From contig NC_089426.1 in assembly GCF_013426205.1 (NCBI RefSeq), forward strand, positions 1,054,001 through 1,118,000: a stretch of DNA of 64,000 nucleotides. The letters run 5' to 3'. This document shows, in pieces, positions 21,777 to 46,619 of the stretch. Positions within the stretch are counted from its first letter, which is position 1, and every line of letters starts with the position of its first letter. The DNA is from Metarhizium brunneum (taxonomy: Eukaryota > Ascomycota > Sordariomycetes > Hypocreales > Clavicipitaceae). Under the pieces are notes generated by a model. The model was not told where the DNA came from. It ran no database searches and was given only the letters and a program-made list of their open reading frames with translations. The translations under genes were made by a program, and so were the position numbers.

Positions 21777-23538
21777 CTACTCCATGGTCCCCTCAGATGA
21801 AGGCAAGGGAACAGCCTTGTACAGCAAAATCAGTGCCGAGTGCGACTCGCCGCCGCCGGCCAGGGCCTCGACCTTGTCCACGGTAACCTCAGTCACCTTG
21901 TCGTCGTTGAACCACCACCACTTGCCGTCCTCCTCACCCTTTTCCCCAGTCTTGGGGTCAACGGGTGCTGACTTCTTGACGTACGAAGTGTAGTGGCCGC
22001 TATCCGCGCTAGCACCCTGATGGGTGACGACGCCACGGAGCTCGTATAGGCCTGACTGGTTTGCACCGTCGTCATTGCGAAGTGCCGGGTCGATCAACGA
22101 ATTCAGTTCCTTCTTGGCAGCCAGAAGTGCAGCATCCTTCTCTGCGTCAATTTCCGCGTCCGTCTTGAAAGCCTCGTCCATCTCTGTGTCACCATCAGCA
22201 GACGTCTGGGGCTTCTTGTCGGCCTCTTTTTCCTTCTTCTCCTTCTTCTCTCTCTCCGAAGGCAAACCCGCTCCTCCGGGAATATCACCCACGTCTTTGT
22301 CATTGTTCTTCTTACGGCGCTTACGAGCCCGCTCAATATCCTCTTCGTCCTTCCTCACCTCACGAACTTTGTCACGCACGGGTATCAACGCCTTCTTCAA
22401 CTCATCCGAGCAAAATTCAACAATATCCAACTCTTGAGGAAAGGTGACTTTTCGCATAATCTTGGCCTTTTTCTGCGTCTCTCGCTTCCAAAAAAATCGT
22501 ACAAAGTGAACAGTCAGGTATTTGGGGGCGCGGGAAATCTTGGACTTTTTGGTATAAGTAGCGTCGCGGCCCAAGACATCCGACTTCTTCTCCAGCTTCT
22601 CACTCAGAGCAGCAAGAATTCCGTCACGCAGATGGTTCGTAGATCCGTCAATATGGCAGTTGAGCTTGTAAAATTGGTCTTTGGATGTCATGACTTGCTC
22701 GCCACCATTGCGGGCTTCTTCCTCATCGCATTCCAAGGTTGAAGAAAATTCGCCCGACATGTACTTATCAACAAAGGAAATTTCCGGCGCATCATCTGAT
22801 TCCTTGATCTTGACCTTTTGGCTCAGTTGCTGAACAATTTGCGACCAAGCCTCCTCTGCGTCCTGCTGAGCATAGCCGTTGTTCGATTTGGCCTTTTCTG
22901 CAAATTGAGGGAAGACAACCCTCAGAGCGGTGAGGAAGTTCATGGGCGGGAATGCGTCTTGCGTCTCGCTCATTTTCCTGTACAGACTGGCCAGCTGCGA
23001 AGCCAAGTCGGCCGAGGCCATACCTGCCATCAGCCCAGACGAATTGGGCTTATATGTCTGCAACGAGGTCTGAAGTTCGGGGATGGATCGCAACGTTTGG
23101 AGAGTCGAATTCAAATAGCACGTGTTTCCCAGGTTGACCAAGCCGGCGGGGGTAGCTCCGACTTGCTGAGCTTGTTCGGCTTCGGTCATGTCCTCAACAA
23201 ATTTGATGCTATCCTTGGGGCGCACAAGATCACCGCCGCCGGATCCGGGAGTGCCCATCATCATTATGACTTGGTTGGGCTTAAGCCCGAGCTTGGTCAT
23301 GTCGGCATCGTCCTTAAGCTGTCCACCTTTAATCAGGATCTTCTGTCGTTCCGGCTCAACGTTGGTGAGGCTAAAGAGTTGTAGCTTGAAGTCTTCGCCA
23401 GTCGATGAGGGGTCGATTTCGACATCGTACTTTTTGCCCTGGTGCTTGACCACGACTGAGGTTGCACTTGTCAGCAAGTTGCCACCAGCGGTGAAGCTCG
23501 ATGGATGGAGGGGTAAACAAACCAGTCAGTGACGCCAT
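21777..23538 (-). CDS. UBP6: Ubiquitin carboxyl-terminal hydrolase 6 (USP14/Ubp6)
   Basis: Proteasome-associated deubiquitinase that trims ubiquitin chains from substrates at the 19S particle. Two exons: a 16-nt first coding exon (23538-23523, MASLT) and 23455-21777, total 564 aa. The 67-nt intron was placed so that the product begins MASLTVVVKHQGKK, as the family requires for the first strand of its ubiquitin-like domain (about residues 3-75, with VEPERQKILIKGG). The USP domain follows: catalytic Cys118 in NLGNTCYLNS, the QQDAEEAW box, and catalytic His493 in SADSGHYTSYV with WWWFNDDKV near the end. A Lys/Glu-rich insertion at roughly residues 370-430 is normal for fungal members. Length is close to the family's 490-570 aa. 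Confident by family signature. Confidence 0.95.
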
Positions 23539-30075: not shown

Positions 30076-30122
30076 CGCGAATTGCTCGGCGGGCTTACTC
30101 TTTTTGCTAGGTGCGCTTACGC
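30076..30122 (+). mobile_element. Terminal fragment of a Mutator-like MITE
   Basis: The sequence starting CGCGAATTGCTCGGCGGGCT is nearly identical to the terminal inverted repeat of the MITE at 40517-40886, including the following TTTTTGCTAGGTGC-type segment. As in that element, TA-rich DNA follows (to about 30205). No matching 3' terminus is seen before the SFH5-like ATG at 30251, so this copy is truncated or decayed. It now lies in the proximal promoter or leader of that gene. Confidence 0.6.
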
Positions 30123-30250
30123 CATATTGCTTAAAAATTTAAGTAATTTATTTTACAATATATATAAACATATTTATTTATTTCATAATATACACAAATA
30201 TATTCCCAACACGGCACTGCCAGCGCCAACGTCAGGCAACGTCACCATCA

Positions 30251-31381
30251 ATGTCTACCGAACAAGTTCCCGCCACTGAGCCCGTGGCTGCGGCCCAGGC
30301 TGCTGGCGATGTGGCCACTGAGACTGCCACGGAAACGGCTACTGAGACTGCCACCCCGCCTGCCGAAACTCCTCTCACCAAGCTGACTGCCCGTTTGCCT
30401 GACATCACTAAAAAGGCTGACCACGATGAGATGTGGGGGGTTGATCTGTCCGCCGACAGTGCCCACGCTCCTACGCAAGTTGTCCTCTACAAGTTCCTCA
30501 AGGCCAACAACAATGATGTCGCTGCCGCCGAGAAGCAGCTTACGTCTGCCTTGGAGTGGCGCAAGAAGATTCAGGCCGGGAAGCTTGTCACTGAACCCTT
30601 TGACGAGGGCAAGTTTGGTGACTTGGGCTTCGTGACCGTTCACAAGGATGCCAATGGGGAAAAGGAGACAGTCATTACGTGGAATATTTATGGCGCCGTC
30701 AAGGATAAAAAGGCCACCTTTGGAAATGTCGACGAGTAAGCCAACCAAAGTCTCGGTAGTCGTTTGATCCAGCTGACAGACAATAGCTTCATTCGTTGGC
30801 GTGTTGCCCTCATGGAGCTCGGCGTCCAGAAACTCCGTCTCAATGAAATCAAGGAACCCCTTGCATTGGACGCCCCGGACAGCCATCAGATGCTCCAGGT
30901 CCACGACTACCTGTCCGTCAGCTTCCTCCGCATGGACCCTGACGTCAAGGCTGCTACCAAGAAAACCATCGAGACCTTCTCCATGGCGTATCCGGAACTA
31001 CTTGCCCACAAGTACTTTGTTAATGTGCCAGCCATCATGGGCTGGATGTATGCCGCTATGAAGCTTTTCCTGCCCACCGCTACATTGCGCAAGTTCCATC
31101 CCATGGCCTCGGGAACCACTCTCGCCGCTGAGTTGCCGGACATTTCAGCCTCTCTGCCCAAGGAGTATGGTGGTCAGGGCCCTAGTGTGAAGGAAGGCGA
31201 AACTGTCAAGCTGGTTGATTTGACACCCAAGGCAGAGGAGACGAAGGCCGACGCTGCTCCCGCTGTTGCCGGTGCAGAGGTTCCAGCTGCCGGGTCTGAG
31301 CCTAAGCCTGCCGTGACACCTGCTGCTGACGTTGCCCCCAAGGTCATCGATGAGGCGGCCGAGAAGGAGACTGCTGCCTAG
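30251..31381 (+). CDS. SFH5: SFH5-like Sec14/CRAL-TRIO phosphatidylinositol transfer protein
   Basis: 359-aa protein from two exons (30251-30735 and 30787-31381) with a 51-nt intron (GTAAGC, branch CTGAC, AATAG). The first 60 residues are a low-complexity Ala/Thr/Glu region with repeated ATET units. Then comes the MWGVDLS motif typical of fungal Sfh5 and a CRAL-TRIO N-terminal helical region (KFLKANNNDVAAAEKQLTSA). The lipid-binding CRAL-TRIO fold follows, with AYPELLAHKYFVNVP and WMYAAMKLFLPTATLRKF, to about residue 290. The acidic Ala/Pro-rich tail is again disordered. Sfh5 moves phosphatidylinositol between membranes and binds haem in yeast. The leader carries a transposon scrap (30076-30122). 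Family assignment is strong, exact orthology likely. Confidence 0.92.
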
Positions 31382-34793: not shown

Positions 34794-37296
34794 ATGTCTC
34801 TGTTTGCGGAGAGCAGCTTGTCCGGCGCCACGACCGACACCTCGTCGACCCTCGCGTCTTCGAGCTCGACGCCCCCGACCACCCTCTCCGACACGGACAG
34901 CCAGCACTCGGACGCCCCTAAACACGACGTAATCACCGTCGCCGACGATGCTATCCACGCCGCCCCCGTCCAGGCCCAGGAGCCTTCGCCCTCCCAGTCG
35001 CCTCCCGCTCCGAGTCGACCACGACGCACACGTGTCTCGGAGCCTGTCTACAATCTGTCCAGGCTGAGCGGCACCGCTGATCACGGAAAAAGACGCGCCA
35101 ACGGCGATGCTGTGGCCGACAAGCGCCGCCGGACCATCTCCGGAGACACCTTGGTGGGCAGCATCGAGGTTGCTGCTGACGGGCCCCCCAAGGCCCAGGA
35201 TAAAGTCCTCAGGGCAGGCATTGACGCGTTGAATCTTCAGTGGTCGCCCCAGAGCTTGCATACACCACGCACACGCCGCCAGGCTCAAGTTTCGCCGCGT
35301 CCCTTGCGGACCTCGTCGCGTCGGAATGCCGTGTCCTCCATCGCTACCACTCTGTCCAGCATGGGCAAGAAGGGGCGCAAGGCCGTCAACATGGGTGTTG
35401 CCAAGATGTCGCGTGAGCTGCGGCGGCTGCAAGACACCAATGAGTATTCCGGCATCGACGACCGTCCTGTCATCCATACCGTCTGGGCGAATGGCAAATT
35501 TATTGATCCCAATGCACCGCCGCCCGAGCCAGCTCGCAAGAAGCCCAAGGTCCAAGAACCTGCCGAGGAGGACGAGTCCGACCAAGAAGAGCAGGAGCCC
35601 ATCACCAACACTAGGAAGAATCGCGTCAAGAAGTATCTCGACAAGGGTCTCTACGCCGGCCAGGAAATACCCGTGGATGTGTTCAAGGGGCTCACCACGA
35701 GTGAAAAGAAGAAGCTTGCCAACCTGCCGGAATTGGCCCTCACGGGCCGCGTGAACAATGCTATGCCTTCTCCCATCTACACTGGTTTGCGCATGTTGGT
35801 TTCTGGGCGCGATTTCAAGCTTCCCTTCAACATCTGCAATCCCCTCCCGCCCGGCCAACCCAAACCAGATGAATGGAAAAAGATGACCAAGAGTGAGTGT
35901 GCACCTCGCAACTGGTGTCAACCTGAAAAAAAAACGCGACGTATGACCCTATTAGCTGACAAATTACCACATAGACCGATTTATTGGTGATTCAAAGGAC
36001 TATTGGCGCAAGATGCCTCACATGCACGACTTGTCCAAGTGTGTTTGCAAGCCTGAAGATGGCTGTGGTGATAACTGTCAAAATAGAATTATGCTCTACG
36101 AGTGTGATGCTGGCAATTGCAATATCGGAAAGGAGCTTTGCACCAATCGCTCATTCAGCGATTTGGCCGCTCGACGCTCCAAGGGAGGCAAATATAGAGT
36201 TGGCGTAGAAGTGATAAAGACGTCGGACCGTGGCTACGGCGTTAGAAGCAACCGCTGCTTCAAAGCAAACCAGATCATTATGGAATACACGGGAGAGATT
36301 ATTACAGAGGAGGAATGTGAGCGCCGCATGAATGAAGAATACAAGAATAATGAGGTGAGAGCAAAACAACAACAACAACAACACATTGCTCGAATGAGCT
36401 GTCGCTCTGACTATGCCGCTAACTCTTCCTCTTCCTCTTCTCTTCTACAGTGCTACTATTTGATGAGCTTCGACCAGAACATGATCATTGATGCCACTAC
36501 TGGCAGCATCGCTCGATTTGTTAACCACAGTTGCAACCCCAATTGCCGCATGATCAAGTGGATTGTCTCGGGACAGCCTCGCATGGCTCTTTTTGCTGGG
36601 GACCGGCCCATCATGACGGGGGATGAGCTCACCTACGACTACAACTTTGACCCCTTCTCCGCCAAGAATGTGCAGAAATGCCTCTGCGGTGAACACAACT
36701 GCCGCGGAGTCCTGGGTCCGAAACCACGCGACGTCAAGTCTTCCAAGACGGACATCAAGAAGACGGTCAAGGCAACTGTCAAGGCTGGGAAGCGCAAGCT
36801 GAAGGAGCTCATTGGAGAAGAGGAAGCCGTAAACGGGAAAGCAAAGAAGCGCAAGTTTGCGGCCGCCACGGGTGTCCAGCGATCCATTTCGAATGCCAGT
36901 CTCAAGGCCGCCAAGGGTGCTGCGACGGCCTTGAAGAAGGGCGTGTCGTCCATCACGGTCAAGGGAAAGAAGTCGATGGCGAGCAAGTCTCCTGTCCAGA
37001 GACGCGTTAGTACGGGAGGCGCCATTATCAAGAAGAAGACTACCACGAAGCTGGTTAAGAAGAATGGCCCTGGCGGCCGAGTTGCCCATGTTTCGTCGCG
37101 AGCTTCAAGCATGACTATAGTGGCTGTTGCTGATGAGAACGCCAAGCCTGGTAAGAAGGGCAAGGTGGTGTCTCCTGCCGGGGCTAAGCGGACGCTTTCG
37201 GAGTCCAACATGGTCTCGCGCGTGTCGTTGAGCTCGACTGGCCGTGTTCTTAAGCCTTCGCCCAAGGCCAAGATTCGACTGGTCCCTCAGGAGTAG
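34794..37296 (+). CDS. ash1: ASH1-type histone H3K36 methyltransferase (AWS-SET-postSET)
   Basis: 774-aa nuclear enzyme from three exons (34794-35892, 35975-36354 and 36451-37296). Residues 1-365 are disordered with basic patches. The AWS domain starts near Cys389 (KCVCKPEDGCGDNC) and runs to about residue 430. The SET domain carries GYGVRSN, the SAM/knot motif NHSCNPNC (518-525) and YDYNF (555-559). The post-SET cysteines are in KCLCGEHNC (Cys570, 572, 577). A Lys-rich, chromatin-binding-like tail of about 190 residues follows. Domain order without WW or SRI domains argues for the ASH1 group rather than SET2. In filamentous fungi ASH1 deposits H3K36 methylation over silent, often subtelomeric, chromatin. 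Intron 2 (36355-36450) is 96 nt, divisible by three and free of stops in frame. Confidence 0.93.
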
Positions 37297-40200
37297 CGCG
37301 GCTGTAGTCCGGAGGCAGGTGGGCAGCAAGGGGAGAGCGCGGGAACGGGGAATGTGACGAGGGAGGAGCTACATACTGGATCGGTGGAGTAACTCGAGCT
37401 TCCCGTCGAATGGCTTTTTTTCTTCTTGTTTGCTGTGATTTGCTGTGAGGGACATGTTTGGTTGAAGGGATGTATTTGGCGCACAGGCGAATTACAGGAA
37501 TTTTTGGCACTGTATAGTATATGGGTTGCTTTTGCTCAGCGGTCATGGAGGCGAACACGAGGGGGGGATATGTAGCTTCTTGAACGATTGTTTGTGTGGT
37601 TTGATGTTGGTGTGCTGTGCGTGTGATGGTGACTGGTACGCCGTGGATGTTGGCTGTGTCGGCTCGACTTGTGGCTGCTTGTTGGAACTTGGACCCGCGC
37701 TATACTCCGCCGTTGTTTACGTCTTGCCGGTTGCTTGTATGTGGGTTTGATGGCCTAAGGGTCGGCTGTAGGCTGGATATTAGACTCGGCGGGTTCTGCT
37801 GCGTCAAGGTGACTTGACGGGCAGACCTGGTACCGGACCCTTCCTCGGTGACGGTTCTCTTGTCGCCTACCCGTTAGTGACTATGGCAAGACTCCTTGGT
37901 TGTACACGGTACATGTACACCGTGTGCGATTGGTGGGTGGGTGAGATACAGTGACGGTGTTTTGGTCTGGTGTTGGTGTTCTGATGGACGGCGTGAACTC
38001 ACGGCCCTTGGAGAAGAGCGCTGTTGCCTCGGTAGATGGACACAAAGCACAGCTTGGCCTTGTATTATACTTGTATTAGTATTCATCTTGGAAGGGGAAT
38101 AATAAATGACTTGATGTATATGTTTGTTGCATATGACAGTCTGGCAGATGATATTTACCCACCAATAAGTATGCACTTGAATACTGTGGTTGTGTTATAT
38201 TATAGGGATGATGGAGCATCATGGCCGGGTATACGATCCGGTTGACTGCTTTTTGCCTCGCACCGCATGTCATGTCTTTTCTCGCATGTTACTGCACTAG
38301 GACAGGACGTCACATTACATTGACATGATTCATACTCTGCAATCCGTCCCGGGTGCTGCTTAAAAGCAAGACAGCGAAGCATACGGATACCAACTCTTTC
38401 GTCTCCTCCTCCTCTCTAGCACAAGAGCCCTGACACCGTATCCAATTTCAGATGCCTCCGAGCGAGATAGACATGAACCGCAACCACGATTACTATTCAC
38501 AAAACCTCACATCGAAACTGCCATCCGTCAAATTGAACTTGAGGGTTATCGTCAGGGGTCCTCAGGGACTTGCAGGGGCATCCGAAAAAGGGTCAAGTTT
38601 CCGGGATTTTTTCATCAATCAACTCGGAGCTTGCATTGCCATTGTCAAGTCAATAGAAAGCTATTTTCATTAATCGAGGCCCTACATAGCTTCCCAAATA
38701 CCGTCCTTTTCCAATGTGTAAATTGCTGTTGAAAACTCCACAATATCAAGCCTTACCATTGCTCCCGTTTGACCGAGCAACGTCCGGCTTGCAGACGGCC
38801 ACTTGGCCAGCCCATGCAAATCCACGACGGCTACCATGGAGAAGACCGACTTGCCGCAACGTCCAGATACTGTACGCAAAAAGCCTGTTCAACAAGTCAC
38901 GCGAAACAAGGTCCCTGTCCGCACGCCCAAGGGCAGCACCCTGATTTCAGAGGAAGCACTCCCGGGCCTGTAGCCACGCGAAGGGTGAAGCGAAACATAC
39001 TCGTAATCCTAGTGAAGCCATTCGAGCGAAGCTGTATGCGCCGCTCCCTTGCCCACGATTTCGCGGCTGTTATGAGCCTGCTGCATAATCTGCTGTTTCC
39101 CGCAGCCCCTGAACAGTGTTTGTTGACTTGGTCTATGTGACTGGCTTTGTTTGGTTCTTGGCTGGAGATGGGGGCGTTGGCTTTGATAAGTTGCCTTGCT
39201 GTTCAAAGTGTCAATTGCTAGATGCATGTAGACCAACTCACTTGAGAGGGTTTTTTTTGTCGCTGTAGTTGTCCAAACAACTTTACAACATGCCGTCATT
39301 GTGATTGTCGCTTGGAGCATGAACCAATAAGCGTATTGATCTTGCAGGTGAATCCATCATCTCACGAATGACTCCAATCCAACAGTGACAACCCCTGGCC
39401 TCGCCAAATATCGGCCCAGTGGCCGCAATGATGCTCGGCAGCGGCAAGGTGTTGGCCAAACTCCGACATGGGACATGTTTGTCCTCAATACCGACGGTTG
39501 TGCGGACTAGATGCTCCCAGACACCAAACTGGGCTGTCCACGACGTGCTCGGCATTGCGACTTGCCGTGGCCACGCGGCTAAACGAGCGCTGTTGGTACG
39601 CGAAACGAGCAAGCCGAGAGAAAAATACATGTCCTCGTGATGGGCGGCCAGTATGTCCTGCAAGACGCCGTGATGGCTAGCCCAGGGGCTCACAACCGCG
39701 GGTACGGCCATGGCGTTCCCGTTGCCGCTGTGCAACTTGGTCAGACTGCACAGGCAGTGTCGCCGAATGACGCGGCCAAGAGGTTGGAGGGTTTCCAACA
39801 GTATCACCAATCACCATGAGGACGTCAAAGACGGTACGGCAACAGTTGCTTGCTTGGCTTCTTTCATAGCCATCAACTCCAACCACCCGCTGGGTTTGGC
39901 AGCATTGCCTTTGAGAAACGGTGCCGTGTCCATCCGAAGGGCGCACAAGCGGTTGGAAACATCAAAGCCCGTGAACCCAGAATCCCCACGCCTCGTAGGC
40001 AAACCGTTCCGGATTCGTCACTGACTCACTGCGTAGAACTGTGGCCGTGTGGCCAATCGTGCCGGACTGCCGGCTTTGTAGTTCTCATCTGATTACGTTT
40101 GCCGCTGAATGCGATGCGGGAAGCACGAACACACTCCTTACTGCCGCCTCTTTTTCTTTCAACGGGACGTTTCCGGGTGTGCCCGGTATGCTATTATATT

Positions 40201-40507: not shown

Positions 40508-40895
40508 TAGAAAAGGTAAATTGCTCGGCGGGCTTGCTATTTTTACTAGGTGCTTTTACTACTTATCCTTTATATTTATATATTAATATATACTAATATA
40601 TATTAATATATACTAATATATATTAATATATACTAATATATATTAATATATACTAATATATATTAATATATACTAATATATATAAATATAGGCTAATATA
40701 TATAAATATATACTAATATATATAAATATAAACTAATATATATAAATATAAACTAATATATATTAATATAAACTAATATATAGTAATATAAATAAATATA
40801 CCCTAGTATATACTAATATAAACTAATATATACTAAGCCTAATAGCTAGGTGTCTAGTAGGGCGTAAGCCCGCCAAGCAATTCGCATAGAAAAGG
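40508..40895. mobile_element. Mutator-like MITE with 9-bp target-site duplication
   Basis: A 370-bp non-autonomous element (40517-40886) has imperfect terminal inverted repeats (core AATTGCTCGGCGGGCTT on the left, AATTGCTTGGCGGGCTT on the right when reversed). It is flanked by a perfect 9-bp direct repeat TAGAAAAGG at 40508-40516 and 40887-40895. Nine-base duplications plus terminal repeats are the hallmark of Mutator-like (MULE) elements. The interior is an AT-rich tandem array with no coding capacity. A truncated relative lies at 30076. Confidence 0.85.
40566..40845. repeat. AT-rich minisatellite inside the MITE
   Basis: About 280 bp of tandem units near 18 bp (TATATTAATATATACTAA and variants). 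The units are most regular at the left and diverge towards the right. Confidence 0.9.
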
Positions 40896-41289: not shown

Positions 41290-42741
41290 ATGAATACTAC
41301 AACTTCGACCCAAATCTTCTCTCCACTCGATGCGGCCAACTTGGAAAGCATTGGCCTGCTTGGACCCGTTGAAACTGATGGAAAGCGAAAATGTCACAAG
41401 CGTCGTCTTAATCGTTCTAGTGACGAAGAGCACAAGGACATTCCCCTTGATGTTAGTATAGGCTCTCCCGAAGCTGAAGAAGCCGACGCCTATGCTACTA
41501 TACCAGACGCCATCTTTTCTCGAGAAACGTTGAATTACCTGGGTTTCTCTACACACATGGCCGATACGATCTGGAACGGATGGGTTAACTGGCCCCTGGA
41601 CGGACCTGGTCGTGAAGTTGACGCTGCCACCGGCGGTCTTCGAGTCACCTTTATTGACTTTATTATCCTTCGCCACGTGAAGAAGGCGAACAACGTCTAT
41701 GAAGACGACGATTTCAAGTGGCGCCAATGCCTCAACGCATGCGGTATGAGCGATTCAGTACAAAATGCCATCATGGATGAGAACTTCAAGGAAATTCGTA
41801 TGTCTAGATCATGTGTCTATTGGGTTACCGACACCGTCCAGATGCGATACGCCGGGCTGAAGGAAATACAACGAGCCTCTCGTGAGCGAGATATGCAACT
41901 TCAGCGAGAACGCGCACGTCAGGGCGGTCCAAGTCGCCGCGACCGCACCAGCAGCAGTATGGGGAGCGATCAGAGTGGAAGTGCTCAGCGTCGTGGCCAT
42001 ACTCGTGGCAGCTCATCCCAGGGGGGACGATCGTTTTCAGGTGCCCAAGCGGATAGCACACCAGGCATTCACTCCGAATTATGGAACCCCAATATTATCA
42101 GGAGAGCACAAGTTGATCCGCAAACCCTTATTCTATTCAAGGGCATTGATCTTGGGCGTATTCCCGACCTCCTGAACCCAGACGGGACGGTTCAAAACAT
42201 CATGGCGCTTTCTTCTCCGCCGCCATCCGACTTCAGCAACAGCACCGCACTATTCTACTTTACGCCTGAAATGGAGGTAGCCGAATACTACGCAGCATAT
42301 GCTAAGCGTCGTGCCGGCTGCGAGGCTGTTGTAATGGTCACTTGTCACATTCCAAAGCAGGTCATCAATGACATGAAGGAGCCCAATATTTTCCGTCTGT
42401 ATTATCCAACGCCACAATGGAAGCAACTTGTCTGGCGCAGCAGGTCCAATCAACCATTTACCAAACCACTGAGAAAGTACGATGATGCCATGCTCATTAT
42501 TGGTAATATTTCCTCAGGGGATAACGACAATTATCGAAAGCTAGCATCTTGGGAGGAAATTGATGGGAGTTGTCTGCTTCGAGTTAAACGAATGGGGCAG
42601 AGTAACGCGCAAATATCGCGACAGTACGCCTTCACAGGCCGCCTCGCAGGACAAGACCTTCTGACTGAAAATGGCAAGTTCAACGCTTATCGCTTCTCGG
42701 ATGAGCACATCACTGCTTTAATCAGCCGTCATCGTGTTTAG
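41290..42741 (+). CDS. Hypothetical protein with putative ADP-ribosyltransferase-like (DUF3990-like) C-terminal domain
   Basis: Single-exon 483-aa gene. Residues 1-60 are charged and include a basic patch (KRKCHKRRLNR). Residues 70-195 form a predicted globular domain of unknown type. Residues 195-262 are an Arg/Gln/Ser/Gly-rich linker. The C-terminal 220 residues show a pattern I associate with DUF3990/ART folds: a strand with ILFKG (281-285), a DF pair (314-315), FYFTPEMEVAEYYA (322-335), a buried strand EAVVMVTCHIP, then WKQLVWRSR and KYDDAMLIIGNIS. This is fold inference from motif order; no catalytic residue is proven. There is no signal peptide or membrane segment. It sits in an island of repeats and mobile relics, and a rearranged scrap of it lies at 43740. 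It could be an accessory effector, defence or element-borne gene. Confidence 0.75.
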   Translation: MNTTTSTQIFSPLDAANLESIGLLGPVETDGKRKCHKRRLNRSSDEEHKDIPLDVSIGSPEAEEADAYATIPDAIFSRETLNYLGFSTHMADTIWNGWVNWPLDGPGREVDAATGGLRVTFIDFIILRHVKKANNVYEDDDFKWRQCLNACGMSDSVQNAIMDENFKEIRMSRSCVYWVTDTVQMRYAGLKEIQRASRERDMQLQRERARQGGPSRRDRTSSSMGSDQSGSAQRRGHTRGSSSQGGRSFSGAQADSTPGIHSELWNPNIIRRAQVDPQTLILFKGIDLGRIPDLLNPDGTVQNIMALSSPPPSDFSNSTALFYFTPEMEVAEYYAAYAKRRAGCEAVVMVTCHIPKQVINDMKEPNIFRLYYPTPQWKQLVWRSRSNQPFTKPLRKYDDAMLIIGNISSGDNDNYRKLASWEEIDGSCLLRVKRMGQSNAQISRQYAFTGRLAGQDLLTENGKFNAYRFSDEHITALISRHRV

Positions 42742-43054: not shown

Positions 43055-43415
43055 ATATTTAATAATATCCGACAATATTCAACAATATCTAATAATATTT
43101 ATAATATCTAATAATATTTAATAATATCTAATAATATCTAATAATATTTAATAATATTTAATAATATCTAATAATATTTAATAATATCTAATAATATTTA
43201 ATAATATCTAATAATATTTAATAATATCTAATAATATTTAATAATATCTAATAATATCTAATAATATTTAATAATATTTAATAATATCTAATAATATTTA
43301 ATAATATCTAATAATATTTAATAATATCTAATAATATTTAATAATATCTAATAATATTTAATAATATCTAATAATATTTAACAATATCTAACAATATTTA
43401 ATAATACTTGACGAT
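43055..43415. repeat. AT-rich minisatellite (AATAATATCT/AATAATATTT)
   Basis: About 360 bp of 10-bp units alternating TAATAATATC and TAATAATATT, with degenerate ends (ACAATATCTA, ATGACATTTA). It lies downstream of the 483-aa gene, mirroring the AT-rich array upstream but with a different unit. Confidence 0.9.
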
Positions 43416-43540
43416 ACTTGATGACATTTAACGATAATCGACGATGGTATCCTCGCTGTAATATCCATAAAGCGGTCGAGAGTCTTGGAGAGAGTCTAAT
43501 CTAGTAGGCGGCATCAGCCCCCGGCCATCCGCTGCCAACA

Positions 43541-43636
43541 GGCTTTGGTGTTTCCCTCCGCTTGTGCGCCTTTTAGATGGACAACGCACCGTTTCTCAAA
43601 GGCGGTGCTGCCAAACCCAGCGGATGGAGTTGTTGA
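43541..43636 (+). repeat. Inverted segment, copy B part 1
   Basis: Reverse-complement relative of 39870-39969 (blocks CACCGTTTCTCAAAGGC and GCTGCCAAACCCAGCGGAT). The protein-like reading seen in copy A is broken here by a stop just before the MDNAPFLKG segment. The matching remainder of the unit resumes only at 44296. Confidence 0.75.
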
Positions 43637-43739
43637 TGCGATTGTGAATTGCTTGGTCGCAGGGACAGCGACACTGCTGCTGTCGGCGCGCGCGGCTAAC
43701 ATCAATCGAATGCCTTGAGTCTTAGAGGCAACCAGTGGG

Positions 43740-43815
43740 CCCGTTGAAACTGATGGAAAGCGAAAATGCCACAAGCGTCGTCTTAATCGTTCTAGTGACG
43801 AAGAGCTAGCATCTT
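43740..43815 (+). pseudogene. Rearranged scrap of the 483-aa gene
   Basis: Bases 43740-43805 match 41365-41430 of the 483-aa gene with a single change (C for T). Directly joined to this is CTAGCATCTT, which matches 42541-42550 of the same gene. The joint therefore looks like an internally deleted copy with an AG microhomology, in direct orientation to the parent. It carries no usable reading frame. Confidence 0.75.
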
Positions 43816-43983
43816 ATGCATAGCCAGGTCAAGGACTCGGCAGTAGGCTGGTACTGTGCAAGTGGTGTTGTTTTCGGCGGCATGCGTGCGCTCGTTGAGA
43901 GTTGAGTGGTTGGGTCAACTGGTTTGGTGCCTGCAGCAACAACAGCATCCAGACTGTCAAGTATCGACATGTAGGGCTGGACC

Positions 43984-44254
43984 GACGGTGTTACACGGTT
44001 GGCACACAACAAAGGGCGTTGGGCCAACAAAGGTTACACAACAACAAAGGCAACGGTCACGAGGCCCGAAGTCGGCTACAAGCGAGGGCTGCCTCAGGCA
44101 CACAGCCCTCACCGACTTCCTGTATTTATAGGGGCCTTTGGCCCTCTAAGGCCTCGTGCAAAACCAAGGACCTTTGATAACCCAAAGTCGATTATTATAG
44201 ATTGAATTGAACCCTCTGTTCCAAGCCCAGTTATCCTGCCCTTGTCACAGACGG
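43984..44254 (+). mobile_element. Solo LTR with perfect 5-bp target-site duplication
   Basis: A 261-bp unit (43989-44249) begins TGTTAC and ends GTCACA (TG..CA ends). It is flanked by perfect direct repeats GACGG at 43984-43988 and 44250-44254. A TATA-like TGTATTTATA lies inside at about 44122. Relatives are at 60163-60408 and 60564-60800. No retrotransposon interior is present, so it is a solo LTR. The superfamily (gypsy or copia) cannot be told. Confidence 0.88.
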
Positions 44255-44295
44255 TCTAGGGCGGCACTAAGCACTGGCGGATCAACCTGGTCGCG

Positions 44296-44336
44296 AGCAA
44301 CTGTTGCCGTACCGTCTTTGGCGTCATGGTGATTGA
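44296..44336 (+). repeat. Inverted segment, copy B part 2
   Basis: AGCAACTGTTGCCGTACCGT and the bases after it match, in reverse complement, the left part of copy A (39808-39850). It is separated from part 1 by about 660 bp that include the gene scrap and the solo LTR, so copy B was split by later insertions. Confidence 0.7.
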
Positions 44337-44585
44337 TCGATAACATGGCTGTTATCAAATGTTGACTCTTTAAATACCAGAAATGTCTATATACCTGTCA
44401 TCTTTAGTATAAGCCCCCTGCCAAACAAATACGTTATATCAACAAATAACCTTTATCAAAATCCGCGGCTACATTTCGTTTCTCCAAGATCATCCGCTAA
44501 CCCACCGTCTTCTATCAAACTCGGTACGCCCCTTGGTAATTCATCGACGGCTTCAACACATAGTAGCTCACCATCAGCTATTTAG

Positions 44586-46546: not shown

Positions 46547-46619
<73 letters not shown>

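Follow-up and report, generated by a model that had tools for sequence, protein, structure and literature searches.

A two-domain protein with an ADP-ribosyltransferase fold in Metarhizium brunneum and its scattered relatives in filamentous fungi

The 64,000-nucleotide stretch of DNA analysed here (the window) is part of chromosome 5 of Metarhizium brunneum (positions 1,054,001-1,118,000) and carries a gene for a 483-aa protein that is comprised of an N-terminal domain, a low-complexity linker, and a C-terminal half with an ADP-ribosyltransferase (ART) fold. The frame consists of 483 codons and a stop codon with no internal stop on translation, which agrees with the single exon read from the sequence in a first-pass annotation, and the modular layout described there is borne out by the translation and by the per-residue confidence (predicted local distance difference test, pLDDT) of the structure model. 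That annotation also called the gene an orphan, which proved wrong: a search of 5.8 billion proteins returned 134 at E <= 1e-3 including the query, and 99 of 120 among the matches listed align over more than 90% of the protein. Because of this conservation, the reading frame is considered real. Family-wide residue counts below refer to an alignment of 85 of the 120 listed proteins (alignment A1). The features of the gene are as follows.

41290..42741, plus strand: gene for the two-domain protein (N-terminal domain, linker, and ART-fold domain)
41290..41922, plus strand: N-terminal domain (residues 1-211), predicted to fold on its own, with neither a Pfam family nor a PDB match found
Residues 36-47, inside the N-terminal domain: conserved HKRRLNRSSDEE motif
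41905..42075, plus strand: low-complexity linker, residues 206-262; pLDDT below 50 at residues 227-252
42076..42738, plus strand: ART-fold, DUF3990-related domain, residues 263-483
42139..42141, plus strand: codon of Lys284 (LFKG), in the place of His in bacterial YHGS by global profile alignment
42256..42258, plus strand: codon of Tyr323 (FYFTP), equal to Tyr of DFGxGFY; Tyr in 80 of 85 proteins
42622..42624, plus strand: codon of Gln445 (RQYAF), equal to the invariant Gln of bacterial DUF3990; Gln in 82 of 85

Residues 1-211 and 263-483 are both confidently modelled, and the linker, rich in Ser, Arg, and Gly, is disordered in prediction. The third-position G+C of the gene is 0.50, versus 0.63 for two long open reading frames (ORFs) of the window that encode a SET domain protein (36013-37296) and a ubiquitin hydrolase (21777-23477). 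In a crude scan (not SignalP), no hydrophobic N-terminal stretch was found (maximum Kyte-Doolittle value, KD, 0.99), and only 3 of the 85 aligned proteins exceed a KD of 1.8 near the N-terminus; judged from sequence, the protein is most likely intracellular.

The ART half and its altered active site

Computation assigns an ART fold to the C-terminal half and shows a divergent relationship to bacterial DUF3990 (PF13151); a conserved Lys-Tyr-Gln replaces the bacterial His-Tyr-Gln. The first-pass proposal of an ART/DUF3990-like half with a matching order of motifs is supported by both the predicted fold and the profile alignments. The bacterial order LYHGS / DFGxGFY / EWLxFVxxxR / YDIIIGxVA / NQxxF is mirrored in the fungal half, blocks 2-5 being paired by local and block 1 by global profile alignment (hhalign retained 83 of the 85 rows). 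The protein itself scores 15.3 bits against PF13151, below the curated cut-off of 32.2, whereas 40 of the 85 aligned proteins match the model at E <= 0.1 (best 5.3e-7), and a precomputed PF13151 label is attached to 7 of 120 relatives among the matches listed. A six-frame search of the M. brunneum genome with the DUF3990 family found nothing.

For comparison, 27 bacterial DUF3990 proteins (those of 44 match rows with given loci that were nearly complete and free of stops) were used, which lie in open frames of 156-290 aa. Their triad positions hold His in 26, Tyr in 27, and Gln in 27 of the 27. In the fungal proteins, Tyr and Gln are kept, while the first position is Lys in 80 of 85 (Arg 3, Gln 1, Glu 1, His 0). 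The Asp of GxxAdD, present in 27 of 27 bacterial proteins, is absent at the aligned column (residue 410), where Lys (53/85) or Gly (22/85) is found; an Asp occurs somewhere in residues 409-412 in 24 of 85 proteins, including D411 here, and the exact pairing depends on the alignment. Since two invariants are gone, the ART half is a related subfamily and not plain DUF3990. The triads of ART enzymes are His-Tyr-Glu or Arg-Ser-Glu. In the fungal proteins, the conservation of Lys equals that of core residues, and the altered site therefore looks like one under selection rather than in decay.

Two viral proteins in BFVD, A0A0H3UZB3 and A0A5K0U8F4 (Yasminevirus), resemble the model structurally (Foldseek E 2.6e-5 and 2.2e-3, respectively) and are possible viral ART relatives.

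With regard to the bacterial genes, 10 small neighbouring ORFs were picked from 9 of 16 inspected loci. Six of them (at five loci) match DUF3791, one carries a helix-turn-helix, and three gave no convincing match; as a picked set, these do not amount to a survey of the DUF3791 share. Several overlap the DUF3990 gene by 4 bases, and at loci L033, L034, L036, L041, and L056, DUF3990 genes overlap or adjoin DUF3791 genes. The open-licence PMC literature contains almost no description of this pair. Both bacterial DUF3990 proteins tested match the candidate anti-phage models PDC-M13, M10, and M42, and the 483-aa protein matches PDC-M13B weakly (E 0.0033, residues 303-442). The bacterial relatives may be toxin-antitoxin-like. 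Whereas a DUF3791 gene adjoins DUF3990 in five of the nine bacterial loci, the fungal protein has a domain of about 210 aa fused to its ART half. Identity of this domain with DUF3791 was considered and rejected, the two being unrelated by profile comparison.

The N-terminal domain and the spread of the family

The N-terminal half forms a domain of its own, which is well conserved and is also found in proteins that lack an ART half. It matches no Pfam family although it is well conserved across fungi, and no solved fold in the PDB was matched despite its confident model. A profile search with this domain recovered 68 proteins, of which 58 have no ART match at E <= 0.01; 40 of these 58 are 190-250 aa long. 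M. brunneum has a stand-alone paralog of its own, 32 kb away on the opposite strand and outside the window (C5:1128803-1129414), whose frame ends directly after a long helix. No ART remnant was detected in the 9 kb around it or elsewhere in the genome, and its nearest relative, which represents a 14-member cluster, shares 97% identity with it and terminates at the same point. An ORF of 318 aa adjoins the paralog (L005:3372-4328, minus strand).

In a tree of 121 rows, the stand-alone form requires 22 changes, at least 18 of them forced by well-supported branches; the shuffled mean is 31.5, and none of 500 shuffles is as low as 22. It follows that the form was gained or lost many times and is nevertheless clustered. 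The tree holds 36 stand-alone rows, namely 35 of the 68 profile matches (none with an ART profile match) and the own-genome paralog; the remaining 33 were left out, being either extended chains that include parts of the linker or ART half, or fragments that are short or uncertain. One clade of eight stand-alone proteins (support 100/99) includes five from named Fusarium species, and seven of the eight share a similar tail. Some other stand-alone proteins may be broken genes, contig ends, or gene-calling artefacts. In Coniochaeta sp. 2T2.1, an ART-half and an N-terminal-half protein bear neighbouring tags (GE09DRAFT_232634 and 232635; P0129 and P0215), perhaps a split or broken family member.

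The named relatives among the matches listed are filamentous ascomycetes (Pezizomycotina), a placement confirmed for three genera; they include Penicillium, Paecilomyces, and Lasiosphaeria, and many further rows are metagenome proteins. No bacterial or viral relative was confirmed. Within Metarhizium, identity to the named relatives is only 74% for M. majus and 60% for M. anisopliae, while the stand-alone paralog shares 97% with its own nearest relative. Paecilomyces variotii (Eurotiomycetes) and the Leotiomycetes Claussenomyces and Bisporella have copies of 79-85% identity, with Claussenomyces represented by a metagenome assembly. Copies from different P. variotii strains are about as similar to one another (85-88%), but share just 36-45% identity with two Penicillium proteins. 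When 48 chosen named proteins, some of them not full length, were placed in a tree, the five P. variotii/Claussenomyces/Bisporella proteins came out as a single clade (100/100) that excludes Penicillium. The Metarhizium proteins pair with a Xylariaceae protein (96/92) and group with Hypoxylon, Gaeumannomyces, Grosmannia, and Sporothrix (100/100), and not with Fusarium, Trichoderma, and Tolypocladium, which are nearer kin of Metarhizium. The simplest reading of these sequence comparisons would be horizontal transfer; the alternative is old paralogy with loss.

When the query is compared with the M. majus protein, divergence of the ART half is 2.25-fold that of the N-terminal half, a ratio that no other of the 93 pairs reaches (median 1.02), and identity in blocks of 20 residues ranges from 35% to 90%. 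Because the median ratio is near 1, this excess is local and not a rule of the family. Overall, the family may spread and often be lost, as selfish or immune genes are.

Mobile-element relics and an inverted duplication

The features around the gene are listed below (strand is given where assigned).

40519..40882: upstream miniature inverted-repeat transposable element (MITE)-like element, in which terminal inverted repeats AATTGCTYGGCGGGCTT enclose an AT-rich tandem array
43989..44249: downstream solo long terminal repeat (LTR; TGTTAC...GTCACA), a 261-bp dispersed repeat that begins with TG and ends with CA
43984-43988 and 44250-44254: 5-bp target duplication GACGG of the solo LTR
39802..39972: left arm of the local inverted duplication around the gene, possibly continued as far as 40300 by a weaker stretch
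43538..44342: right inverted arm, matching at 43538-43638 and 44293-44342, with the gene relic and the solo LTR lying in between
43736..43806, plus strand: 71-bp relic of the 5′ part of the gene (codons 24-48, 97% identical), inside the right arm

Mobile relics on both sides had been reported in the first-pass annotation, and the MITE-like element and the solo LTR confirm them; the inverted arms and the gene relic had escaped it. Its "island" survives in the sense that transposable-element relics and an inverted duplication surround this single gene, without a match to a Starship captain on the chromosome: none of the 17 DUF3435 matches of the genome lies on chromosome 5 (a lower bound from a six-frame scan; Starship ends were not searched for).

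The MITE terminal repeat occurs three times in the window versus 0.05 expected. Related copies exist elsewhere in the genome, where the matches are inflated by AT-rich repeats and do not give a copy number. The downstream repeat is identified as a solo LTR because of its TG...CA ends and the flanking GACGG duplication, and at least 48 further matches were found. With the left flank as query, no further copy of the arms turned up, a result that is not firm since the reverse search with the right flank missed this very pair. The relic scores 132, compared with at most 31 in 200 shuffles, and after it comes a 12-base word found again in the 3′ part of the gene, as if an internally deleted copy had been left there. 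Repeat-induced point mutation gave no consistent signal over the gene.

Elsewhere in the window, part of the same MITE-like family lies at 30080-30203, likely in the promoter of an ORF that begins some 50 bases further on, at 30251. Two long AT-rich arrays of approximately 10-base units flank the gene, at 40577-40835 (inside the MITE-like element) and 43060-43400 (outside it), and a long (CT)n tract occurs at about 46549-46612, in or beside a minus-strand gene downstream.

Possible functions of the protein

ART toxins are familiar agents of bacterial conflict, whereas the known fungal systems of self/non-self recognition and drive are mainly those of NOD-like receptors (NLRs), HET domains, Spok, and wtf. 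The scattered relatives among filamentous fungi hint at a mobile conflict or self-defence system. The reading that we favour, tentatively, is that the gene product acts inside the cell as a two-domain member of a conflict-type family widespread in fungi, and that its ART half is restrained by its N-terminal half. Briefly, the ART half would use NAD+ to modify or deplete something within the fungal cell. The N-terminal half would pack on it and hold it in check until a trigger arrives, which might be hyphal fusion with non-self, an invader such as a virus, or the loss of the antidote. Stand-alone N-terminal proteins might act in trans as antidotes or regulators by binding ART halves. These steps, all beyond the fold assignment, are ones that we infer. 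A more far-reaching version, doubtful as a whole, is that the family represents a so far undescribed class of toxin-antidote or allorecognition genes in fungi: a Lys-Tyr-Gln DUF3990-type ART toxin that would be silenced by a fused domain without a PDB match, with stand-alone copies as trans antidotes and horizontal movement between classes of filamentous fungi, as a eukaryotic counterpart of the DUF3990-DUF3791 pairs. No paper on this fungal ART family was found in the open-licence PMC literature. If the conflict reading is true, fungi would gain an ADP-ribosylation conflict system that is directly testable in yeast.

The strongest competitor, possible though less probable than the restrained toxin, is a pseudo-ART sensor, in which the fold and perhaps an NAD+/ADP-ribose pocket are kept, catalysis is lost, and the N-terminal domain serves as the output. 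The consistent absence of His from the first triad position and the replacement of the GxxAdD Asp point this way, and stand-alone N-terminal proteins suggest that this half is able to work alone. On the other hand, the triad Tyr and Gln are retained, and the strong conservation of Lys is as compatible with a changed active site as with the loss of one. Even with an inactive ART half, the N-terminal domain would be a frequent conserved fungal domain without a Pfam match or a matched solved fold. An ordinary accessory enzyme of housekeeping or stress, i.e., an intracellular mono-ADP-ribosyltransferase with a normal substrate that became patchy through accessory-gene loss, is unlikely. It would account for the absence of a leader and for whole-length conservation among fungi of many lifestyles, but it sits poorly with near-identity across classes alongside divergence among P. 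variotii strains, with the low identity inside Metarhizium, and with the relics and duplication at the locus.

Patchiness and discordant trees would also be expected of a selfish gene or of Starship cargo rather than a cell-level system, and Starships have been described from Pezizomycotina (PMC12134995). This is nonetheless very unlikely, given the lack of captain matches on chromosome 5 (from a search for captains, not for Starship ends) and surroundings that are made up of a MITE-like element, a solo LTR, and an inverted duplication. A secreted effector against insects or plants is highly improbable. In PMC12099005, Beauveria bassiana is reported to have a cluster of 17 secreted proteins of ADP-ribosylation fold, with relatives in Metarhizium and Cordyceps; an ART fold in an entomopathogenic fungus is common to them and the present protein. 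Those proteins are grouped there as diphtheria-toxin-like and heat-labile-enterotoxin-like, whereas the 483-aa protein is DUF3990-like and shows no hydrophobic leader in the crude scan, with relatives in many Pezizomycotina, among them the Penicillium, Paecilomyces, and Lasiosphaeria proteins.

With respect to other known systems, RES/ParT-type ART toxins (ParT, MbcT, and Xre-RES) gave no sequence match in the PDB search; in their PDB entries, the antitoxin is a separate chain, whereas the candidate control domain of the fungal protein is fused. By analogy, the two-domain ART protein may be nearest in kind to Spok of Podospora and Fusarium, described in PMC12693581 as a one-protein toxin/antidote with nuclease and kinase domains. 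Both are single, fast-changing fungal proteins of two modules found in accessory regions. They differ in that "ADP-ribos" occurs nowhere in PMC12693581 and that drive or toxicity of the fungal ART family is putative. It was also reported there that a yeast screen was used for the Fusarium genes and that some Spok versions have a working antidote and a non-functional toxin domain; such versions may parallel the N-terminal-only proteins found here, whose protective role is putative and some of which may be truncated genes.
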